In this document: in pieces, positions 4,216-5,861 of the stretch
How positions within the stretch are numbered: position 1 is the stretch's first letter
Layout: each line of letters starts with the position of its first letter
The notes under the pieces: generated by a model
The model's input: only the letters and a program-made list of their open reading frames with translations
Told to the model about the DNA's origin: nothing
The model's database searches: none
Source: an uncultured Bacteroidales bacterium
GTDB lineage: Bacteria > Bacteroidota > Bacteroidia > Bacteroidales > Paludibacteraceae
Length of the DNA: 56,480 nucleotides
Assembly (NCBI GenBank): GCA_902798965.1
Contig: CADBYS010000018.1
Span: 1-56,480, forward strand
Direction: 5' to 3'
Position numbers and translations under genes: made by a program

Positions 4216-4904
4216 ATGGCAAACGAGAACAAAGCAAGTGAGATTATTCCTTACAACCCAAGCGAAGAAAATGTTGTCGTCTATCGAACGGAAGACAGGA
4301 CATTGGAATTAGATGTACAACTGAAAGATGAAACAGTATGGCTTACTCAGCAACAGATGGCATCGTTATTTAATTTACGATACCAAATGTCAGCATGCAC
4401 ATCCATAATATATACAAGGAAGGCGAGCTGAACAAAGAGGCAACTGTTAAGGATTTCTTAATAGTTCAAAACGAAGGTGGCCGTCAAGTAGCACGACGCG
4501 TGTCATACTACAACCTTGATGTCATTATCTCGGTAGGCTATCGCGTTAAGTCTCAAGCCGGCACTCGTTTCCGCCAGTGGGCAACGAAAATATTGAAAGA
4601 CTATATGTTGTGCGGCTACGTCGATGCCACGACCTTCGATATACTGGATGTGCGAGCCAAAGGCGTAATCGCCGATATCTATTCCGACAGCGATTACAAG
4701 AGTTTACGCGACATGCATAACATTTCCGCCGGCAAGCAACCTGTCACAACACACAAATGGTCAACCGTCTCCCATGACCGCTGGCTAATCATTGATGACA
4801 CGCTCTACCATTGCGGTCACTCCTTCAAAGACATGGGCAAGAAACTTTGCGCCATCACGCGGATGGGAGCATGTCCTGAAGATATATTGAAGTTAATTAG
4901 ATAA
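4216..4904 (+). pseudogene. RhuM-family (virulence protein RhuM / ORF6N-like) gene with a frameshift
   Basis: The N-terminal part (4216 to about 4380) reads VWLTQQQMASLFN, the usual start of the RhuM domain. It then runs into a foreign frame and would stop at 4431. The expected continuation (PNVSMHIHNIYKEGELNKEA) is found in another frame from about 4382 and ends at 4904. A single missing base near 4376-4381 restores one reading frame. The tail, with HDRWLIIDDTLYHCG and FKDMGKK, resembles the C-terminus of Bacteroidetes proteins that join RhuM or ORF6N domains. At about 228 residues the restored protein is also short for such fusions, suggesting an internal deletion. It is probably decayed, though a sequencing error could explain the frameshift alone. 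Confidence 0.75.
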
Positions 4905-5050: not shown

Positions 5051-5106
5051 TTCAGTACCGCGAGTGGGACTTGAACCCACACAGCCGTTTCGGGCCAAAG
5101 GATTTT

Positions 5107-5813
5107 CATACAAACCGAAGTTTGCTTGGACTATGTCTTAACCCTATCCTTGCGGACGTAGGTTGCGGGTATATAGTCTCTACACATTTAGGAATAATCC
5201 TTACCGGATTGTTTCCACTTAGCTCGGCGTTCTTTGCATTTATTAGGCTGCAACATTCACCGAATTAGCCCGCTTCTACTCCGAGGGTTTCCCCCCGGGC
5301 ACTCTTTACCTTGTTTTTCCCTCGATAATTTTTAGTCATTGCATGGCAGTTAGGGCATAATACCTTAAGGTTATCCAACCTTTGATCATCCTTAAGACCA
5401 TTAACATGGTGTAACTCCAGCGCGATGGGCTTCCCCATCCATTCAGAGTTACCGCAACACTCACAGCGCCTTGCTTTTATTCCCTCGTTGAGCAATCGCT
5501 CACGCAGGTGATTTGCATTGACGAATGTCGAATGTTCCACTAAGATCTCCTGTAAGGGTTGCTTTTCCCTAAGCGGACGATATTGTTCGCCTTGGTTCCA
5601 TGCTTGCCCCGTCATGTGAGATACATCGAGATTGAGTTCGCGAATCTTTCGCCTAACCATGTCGTAGTTACTTCCCGCAACTCGCAAGTTAAGAGACCTT
5701 AATACTTGCGCGTACGATAGCGAACTATTAACAGCTTGAACAAAATCTTCGTCAGTCCATTTACGTTTACTCATACATTGTACTGTTTGAACTCTCAAAA
5801 AACGTACTTTTCA
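5107..5813 (-). ncRNA. Group I self-splicing intron in tRNA-Leu(UAA)
   Basis: All landmarks read on the minus strand. P1: the 5' exon end GGACUU can pair with the internal guide GAGUUC near 5794-5789, leaving a U-G pair at the splice site. P/Q (P4): AATTCGGTGAA and AACGCCGAGCTAAG downstream of the ORF. R and S (P7): GTAGAGACTATATACC and AAGACATAGTCC. P9: CAAAC-TTCG-GTTTG. The last intron base is G, directly before the 3' exon. The S sequence AAGACATAGTCC is closer to phage-type (IA-like) introns than to the IC3 introns found at this site in cyanobacteria; that subgroup call is tentative. The intron encloses an HNH endonuclease gene in the same direction. Confidence 0.9.
5265..5774 (-). CDS. 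HNH homing endonuclease encoded within the group I intron
   Basis: The product is 169 residues when started at 5774 (MSKRKWTDEDF). A longer in-frame start at 5798 would overlap the P1/guide region and is less likely. The N-terminal part resembles the small DNA-binding domain of phage and intron HNH proteins (TDEDFVQAVNSS, SYAQVLRSLNL). The C-terminal part holds CECCGNSEW, the HNH core LELHHVNGLKDD and LKVLCPNCHAMT, giving two cysteine pairs for zinc and the catalytic histidines. All core residues are present, so the enzyme may be active. By family, it would cut intronless tRNA-Leu alleles near the insertion site and so spread the intron. It is translated from the intron strand and probably relies on the tRNA promoter. 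Confidence 0.88.
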   Translation of the reverse strand: MSKRKWTDEDFVQAVNSSLSYAQVLRSLNLRVAGSNYDMVRRKIRELNLDVSHMTGQAWNQGEQYRPLREKQPLQEILVEHSTFVNANHLRERLLNEGIKARRCECCGNSEWMGKPIALELHHVNGLKDDQRLDNLKVLCPNCHAMTKNYRGKNKVKSARGETLGVEAG

Positions 5814-5861
5814 AAGTCCTTCGTGTCTACCGATTCCACCATCGCGGCATCAAAAACGGTG

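Follow-up and report, generated by a model that had tools for sequence, protein, structure and literature searches.

A group I intron with an HNH endonuclease gene in tRNA-Leu(UAA) of a Paludibacteraceae genome and its relatives in virus contigs

RESULTS

The split tRNA-Leu(UAA) gene

We analyzed a stretch of 56,480 nucleotides (hereafter, the window) from an uncultured gut Bacteroidales bacterium, in which a tRNA gene on the minus strand is interrupted by an intron with an open reading frame (Table 1). ARAGORN identified the joined exons as an 86-nt tRNA-Leu(taa) with the intron between U34 and A35, as a previous reading of the window from its sequence alone (the sequence-only reading) had proposed. 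No tRNA call was obtained for the unspliced window; a tRNA-Ser call that ARAGORN made for the unspliced gene with introns allowed was rejected as a mis-call.

Table 1. Coordinates of the split tRNA-Leu(UAA) gene, its intron and the intron elements in the window
Feature	Position	Strand	Basis
5' exon of tRNA-Leu(UAA), ending with U34; 35 nt	5814..5848	-	Joined exons in ARAGORN; uninterrupted homologues
Group I intron of 707 nt, inserted between U34 and A35	5107..5813	-	Exons in ARAGORN; RF00028 (E 5.4e-9); exact insertion relative to G564
GAGAGUUC, alternative guide-like sequence by the 5' splice site	5789..5796	-	Type found in 4/22 intron heads
HNH endonuclease gene, 169 aa + stop, putatively in the P1 loop	5265..5774	-	phrog_10822; Pfam HNH
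GAGUGC, putative internal guide sequence	5299..5304	-	Invariant in 16/16 cores; with exon CUU: U-G, U-A, C-G
P2 hairpin, also HNH-coding	5281..5298	-	7/7 pairs changed on both sides
P3, 5' strand (partner 5169-5165)	5269..5273	-	2/5 pairs changed on both sides, 3 invariant
P7, 5' strand (partner 5133-5129)	5174..5178	-	5/5 pairs invariant
P3, 3' strand	5165..5169	-	Same pairing analysis
P7, 3' strand, within AAGACAUAGUCC	5129..5133	-	Pairing analysis of 16 cores
P9 hairpin CAAAC-UUCG-GUUUG, then UAUG and the 3' splice site	5111..5124	-	Sequence; Rfam alignment
3' exon of tRNA-Leu(UAA), starting with A35	5056..5106	-	ARAGORN; 51/51 nt identical to the intron-free G564

Group I core and guide sequence

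An E-value search of the window against Rfam matched Intron_gpI (RF00028) at positions 5317-5109 of the minus strand (41.5 bits), which agrees with the previous assignment to group I; the match misses the gathering threshold, at which Rfam returned no match in the window. Elsewhere in the genome, the sole other RF00028 match among the matches listed has an E-value of 3.8. We then scored covariation in an alignment of 16 homologous cores (13 bacterial cores and 3 from virus contigs), using a hand-drawn pairing scheme that comprised P2, P3, P4, P5, P6, P7 and P8. Standard pairs occupied 98.5% of the 591 cells, both partners had changed in 19 of the 37 pairs, and the covariation score was 0.416, compared with 0.139 after shuffling and at most 0.10 when the partners were slid by one column. 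This covariation speaks against a chance Rfam match. The intron accordingly contains a conserved P3-P8 core with a P7 pseudoknot, in which P7 is invariant in all cores and therefore provides no covariation evidence by itself.

The exon CUU at the 5' splice site can pair with GAGUGC, placing U34 opposite a G, and the last base of the intron is G; both a U-G pair in P1 and a terminal G had been noted from the sequence alone, with no guide named. In introns with an ORF, GAGUGC follows the HNH gene; in seven introns that lack an ORF, its distance to the 5' splice site is 32-97 nt. A better-pairing sequence, GAG(AG)UUC, occurs near the splice site in 4 of the 22 intron heads examined, and the duplex of the proximal GAGAGUUC has a folding energy of -5.6 kcal/mol, compared with -3.9 kcal/mol for the distal GAGUGC. 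Because GAGUGC is invariant in all 16 cores, we take it to be the internal guide sequence, and the ORF of the ORF-bearing forms would thus lie inside the P1 loop.

The HNH endonuclease gene

As previously read, the HNH frame is complete. It extends from the ATG at 5774 to the TAA at 5267-5265, and its last codons share bases with P2, with the guide sequence and with the P3 5' strand. Residues 2-163 matched the phage family phrog_10822 (E 2.4e-46), whereas Pfam HNH scored 20.6 bits, just below its cut-off of 21.4, and the best result of a search against solved structures was a McrA-like HNH (E 0.014). An HNH/zinc motif is present within the complete and conserved frame, as expected of an HNH homing endonuclease. 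The values of dN and dS were 0.082 and 1.43 between the window and G578, and 0.058 and 0.83 between G551 and G586, respectively; synonymous sites were saturated in more distant pairs. These comparisons indicate that the HNH frame is under purifying selection.

Among phage records, the nearest HNH was that of Dulem virus 42 (65.6%), and the 8.5 kb around that gene contained no match to the intron model R1 described below. In a tree of 30 HNH rows, the proteins of the window, its genus, the g32 copies outside introns, virus contig L132 and Dulem virus 42 formed one clade (92/89, below the mark of 95). Free-standing HNH relatives with 40-43% identity are found beside tRNA genes of Enterococcus, Pseudomonas and Rhodococcus phages; unlike the gene of the window, they are located outside introns according to their annotation.

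Distribution in Paludibacteraceae

We searched the family with R1, a model built on the 16 cores, of the type A introns defined below, including those of virus contigs L129, L132 and L138 and not that of L145. With filters of a stricter kind, under which weak matches may be lost, R1 matched 28 of the 358 family genomes: 23 of the 178 genomes of the window's genus, three of g32 and two of g51. A tRNA-Leu match was found in 159 of the 178 genus genomes, and the identical 86-nt tRNA is uninterrupted in 14 genomes of the genus. In one of these 14, the intron-free genome G564, the tRNA gene is at the same locus as in the window, with a match of 87.7% over 1,350 bp upstream, and its exons abut exactly where the window has the additional 707 nt. 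The comparison of related loci that the sequence-only reading had suggested thus revealed both presence and absence of the intron, including an exact empty site. Four MAGs titled Paludibacteraceae, a family of the order Bacteroidales to which the host had been assigned from the sequence, carry the same HNH; their sources are red deer, yak, goat and horse. All bacterial copies examined come from genome assemblies, and those named are MAGs.

The 23 introns of the genus comprise 20 of type A and three of type B (G511, G019 and G020), which scored 182-204 and 64-78 bits, respectively, against a model that was itself built on type A. The HNH frame of type A is open in 10 of the 20 introns (G000, which is the window's own genome, G578, G529, G502, G551, G557, G586, G022, G547 and G594) and broken in five (one stop in G543, several stops in G579, split in G556, shortened in G500 and G574). 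Four others retain HNH remnants at most, in introns of 221-284 nt (G585, G486, G558 and G081), and one intron is cut by the contig end (G593). In two genomes of the sister genus g32 (G198 and G067), an ORF-less 221-nt intron is accompanied by an HNH gene located approximately 90 bp behind the tRNA and 69-70% identical to that of the window; G180, also of g32, has an ORF-less 255-nt intron close to a contig end. In G100, an HNH gene is located behind the apparent tRNA 3' end, on the opposite strand and at a contig end. Since the HNH gene stands beside the tRNA in g32 and in the intron in the window, the same endonuclease occurs both inside and just outside.

Several further observations were made at these loci. 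At L043 (2609-3471) and L093, an ORF-less tRNA-Leu intron is found with a free-standing HNH relative approximately 90 bp behind the tRNA gene. The type B introns (L118, L119 and L122, in G511, G019 and G020, respectively) belong to a second lineage of introns that occupies this tRNA-Leu site. On visual inspection, their HNH frame has an apparent TTG start, in which the first T is exon U34 and the TG forms the first two bases of the intron. Short segments copied from the T-arm region of tRNA-Leu are located behind the split gene in L041 (2723-2743, with 21 nt identical) and L042 (3788-3819), and are possibly the scar of an old integration or duplication. Behind the tRNA of the window, two overlapping plus-strand ORFs (4216-4904) resemble one interrupted gene, possibly RhuM-like.

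Virus contigs with introns at the same site

A 16-nt core motif retrieved 16 virus contigs from IMG/VR, 15 of which matched R1; L135, without an R1 match, was discarded as a chance match to the motif. A tRNA-Leu(UAA) gene split at U34/A35 was resolved in 11 of the 16, and the borders in L139 were ambiguous. A second motif retrieved 11 contigs, including three new ones (L144, L145 and L146), each with a tRNA-Leu(UAA) gene split at U34/A35. Some contigs form near-identical sets (L128/L131/L136/L142, L134/L137/L141 and L139/L140). Over all loci studied, no tRNA was assigned for L130, L131, L140, L143, L164, L172, L174/L124, L176, L181 and L192.

The highest R1 scores among the virus contigs were those of L129 (194 bits), L138 (191), L145 (187) and L132 (186), and these four contigs carry the intron at the same site, with cores in the same clade as type A. 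L132, a 166-kb contig, encodes the same HNH (69% identity) at the same P1 position as the window; at that position, L129 and L145 instead carry another ORF, which is HNH-like by eye, and the introns of L138 and L146 are ORF-less. When INPHARED phages were searched by blastn, the core of the window gave no match and the L138 intron matched four Lak phages.

Terminase (PF03237) was found in 0 of 8 virus records, and their phage nature therefore rests on their classing in IMG/VR, a structural protein in L132 and replication genes in L138. Specifically, when TAG was read as Q in the L132 record, one of the 10 proteins tested matched virion structural families and eight of 10 were without a family; a ThyX-like protein of this contig is nearest to that of a Bacteroides phage (37%). 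Weak protein matches suggest that the hosts of the virus contigs are probably Bacteroidota. A RAGATH-1 hammerhead ribozyme (71.6 bits) was also observed in L138 (9447-9521), the contig that carries the ORF-less tRNA-Leu intron.

Other Bacteroidota introns and core trees

In a sample of 395 genomes from the phylum, R1 matched 17 genomes: the window's own, six with tRNA-Leu(UAA) introns, eight with introns of tRNA-Arg type and two untyped. The six tRNA-Leu(UAA) introns (L178, L179, L180, L182, L183 and L187), from other Bacteroidota families, are ORF-less, measure 194-271 nt and have the same split point. Their cores are unlike that of the window and scored 66-83 bits, compared with 182-204 for type A of the family, a gap that is expected in part because R1 was built on type A. 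We presume that these introns are IC3-like. Other Bacteroidota also have group I introns in tRNA-Arg(UCU): ARAGORN confirmed this anticodon for L186 and L193, and it is likely for L184, L185 and L188-L191. A 212-nt group I intron in tRNA-Ile(UAU) of G432 (L085:1475-1778), over the Rfam cut-off, is located near tRNA-Leu(CAA). Two weak RF00028 matches from an order sample (L087 and L088) were dropped by eye, and R1 had no match in L087-L092.

A first core tree was constructed without the ORF-less Bacteroidota introns. A tree of 40 rows included five of the six tRNA-Leu and three of the eight tRNA-Arg introns of other Bacteroidota; six near-duplicate rows were removed, and the phages L128, L133 and L143 were excluded. 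In this tree, which gave long-branch and composition warnings, type A and nine phage rows were split (100/99) from the remaining rows, namely the ORF-less tRNA-Leu and tRNA-Arg introns of Bacteroidota, type B, Lak, G432 and G826. When the tree was repeated with 32 rows, without the long rows, type A together with L129, L132, L138 and L145 stood apart at 100/100; in a repeat with 35 rows, in which Lak and L134/L139 were retained and the bootstrap had not settled, support for the wide split decreased to 80/81. The core of the window had been described as phage-like from the sequence; indeed, its nearest cores are those in tRNA-Leu(UAA) of IMG/VR virus contigs, within the group supported at 100/100.

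The positions of the remoter rows varied. Type B and Lak were grouped at 100/100 (40 rows) and 96/92 (repeat), with a long Lak branch of unlike composition. L139 was placed outside type A in the first tree, with type A in the 40-row tree (100/99) and beside type A in the repeat (80/81). Forks within type A were mostly without resolution. Because the remoter phage rows shift and type A is poorly resolved, these trees do not establish a phage-to-host direction.

DISCUSSION

The results confirm the previous observation of a group I intron with an HNH gene in tRNA-Leu(UAA). We consider that the element is very probably a mobile group I intron that splices itself, spreads by HNH homing and belongs to a lineage common to Paludibacteraceae and phages, likely carried by the latter. 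In the proposed mechanism, exon CUU would pair with GAGUGC, and the RNA would fold and excise itself to yield a tRNA that reads UUA. If the precursor is translated before splicing, the HNH homing endonuclease would be produced; since the HNH frame extends into P2, P3 and the guide sequence, an RNA that is being translated should be unable to splice, and vice versa. The endonuclease would then cleave, close to the anticodon, those tRNA-Leu(UAA) alleles that lack the intron, and repair would copy the intron into them, with phages as the likely carriers of the lineage between tRNA-Leu(UAA) genes. As judged from the sequences compared here, self-splicing, HNH homing and arrival by phage are the most likely course of events, and we infer that the intron has been exchanged between phages and their hosts.

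The bacterial and phage introns could also be kin through transfer from bacteria to phages. The HNH tree is consistent with this, because L132 and Dulem virus 42 are nested among bacterial HNHs (92/89, below the mark), but the same phage core is associated with differing endonucleases (L129 and L145 versus L132) or with none (L138 and L146), and type A was found in only two genera of one family among the bacteria searched. In one core tree, moreover, the bacterial type A rows lie on one side of a branch (79/90), a weak argument against such a transfer. We therefore regard a bacterial source of the phage introns as rather unlikely.

Alternatively, the element might descend from an old cellular intron of the cyanobacterial IC3 type in tRNA-Leu(UAA) that gained an HNH gene, with phages having taken the intron from bacteria. 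The tRNA is the same, and ORF-less introns with the same split were found in six of the 17 R1 genomes of the phylum sample; however, these six score far from type A, even if part of that gap reflects the construction of R1, and type A with four phage cores was set apart at 100/100 in a tree that contained five of the six. Furthermore, R1 matched only 23 of the 178 genus genomes. On this evidence, an origin from an old cellular intron is improbable.

It might also be supposed that the interrupted gene is dead and that the cell relies on a different UAA tRNA. In favor of this, the completeness of the assembly is 90%, and one assembly, G529 (5% contamination), has both an intron-bearing and an uninterrupted tRNA-Leu(UAA) gene, the sole such case among the matches listed for the 23 genomes. 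However, all 40 other tRNA matches of genome G000 were typed by ARAGORN, and none has the anticodon taa, although leucine tRNAs with gag, cag, caa and tag are present; the condition raised in the sequence-only reading, that this is the only tRNA-Leu(UAA) gene, thus holds for the present assembly, with G529 as an intron-bearing genome in which a second one exists. In addition, the joined exons are identical (86/86 nt) to the uninterrupted genes of 14 genomes, and the pairing of the core is kept across relatives. A dead gene is accordingly very improbable. As a point against the preferred explanation, UUA codons are rare, with four in the three window genes counted. Finally, it is scarcely credible that the gene belongs to a phage contig or an assembly chimera, given that, although the intron and HNH are phage-like and the assembly is fragmented, the 1,350 bp upstream correspond to the locus of the intron-free G564 (87.7%) and the arrangement is repeated in several independent assemblies.

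Beyond the preferred reading of a mobile intron shared with phages, a wider one can be proposed tentatively, with not quite even confidence: the anticodon loop of tRNA-Leu(UAA) may be a homing site common to phages and their Bacteroidales hosts, where phages with their own tRNAs would breed introns and pass them to the essential tRNA of the host. This would have occurred at least two times in the genus (types A and B), with the endonuclease shifting between a place beside the tRNA and the P1 loop. The warnings on Lak in the trees and the shifting of the remoter phage rows reduce our confidence in this wider reading. A single lineage occupies one tRNA position both in virus contigs and in host chromosomes, and empty sites occur together with intact, decaying and lost endonucleases in one genus. 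This makes directly testable both the proposed cycle, in which an intron invades, decays and is lost, and the proposed phage-to-host transfer into an essential RNA.

Cyanobacterial and plastid tRNA-Leu(UAA) introns interrupt the same tRNA gene, presumably also at U34/A35; they are usually ORF-free and of type IC3. The intron of the window differs from them in its length of 707 nt, its HNH gene and its core, which is grouped with phage introns. The element probably represents a lineage other than the classic cyanobacterial intron in the same tRNA, and this lineage is shared with virus contigs, in line with the independent colonization of the site proposed by the sequence-only reading.

The known tRNA-Leu intron of Anabaena measures 250 nt, and those of Derbesia and Bryopsis span 167-206 nt (PMC2729099). 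A 2014 review tabulates tRNA group I introns for cyanobacteria and α- and β-proteobacteria, and states that most bacterial and plastid tRNA introns are inserted at 37/38 (PMC4033280). I-Ssp6803I is encoded in the tRNA-fMet intron of Synechocystis, and this intron is, like that of the window, a bacterial tRNA intron with its own homing endonuclease (PMC1995217); the Synechocystis system differs in its PD-(D/E)XK enzyme, its tRNA and its host phylum. The tRNAscan-SE 2.0 article describes 36 genomes without a normal fMet or Ile2 tRNA, with group I introns as the cause (PMC8450103). Among the papers listed in searches of open-licence literature, no title or abstract opening mentions the present element.

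With regard to phages, Hausner et al. (2014) stated that, although phages have many tRNAs, all phage introns then known interrupted protein genes, and Bacteroid* had no match in the text of that review (PMC3984707). Many group I introns of crAss-like phages were likewise described in protein genes in 2021 (PMC7886860). Devoto et al. (2019) reported tRNA introns of Lak phages, which they called 'enigmatic' and, to their knowledge, the first in phage tRNAs (PMC6784885); tRNA-Tyr(GTA) is named there for baboon Lak genomes (PMC6784885). Lak megaphages, which infect Prevotella, resemble the type A virus contigs in having introns in phage tRNAs, and our results suggest a possible class for these introns, of which one, that of Lak-B1, was examined. 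This intron matched R1 (51.5 bits, E 9e-13), and RF00028 had no match in the Lak-B1 stretch at E 0.01; it differs from that of the window in its length of 245 nt and in its tRNA, which ARAGORN read as having the anticodon CUA. Specifically, in Prevotella phage Lak-B1 (MK250020.1; L197:2372-2689), the joined exons with CUA were labeled Pyl by ARAGORN. Since the predicted code of Lak-B1 is 15, a CUA tRNA would be amber-reading, and recoding in this phage may therefore depend on splicing.
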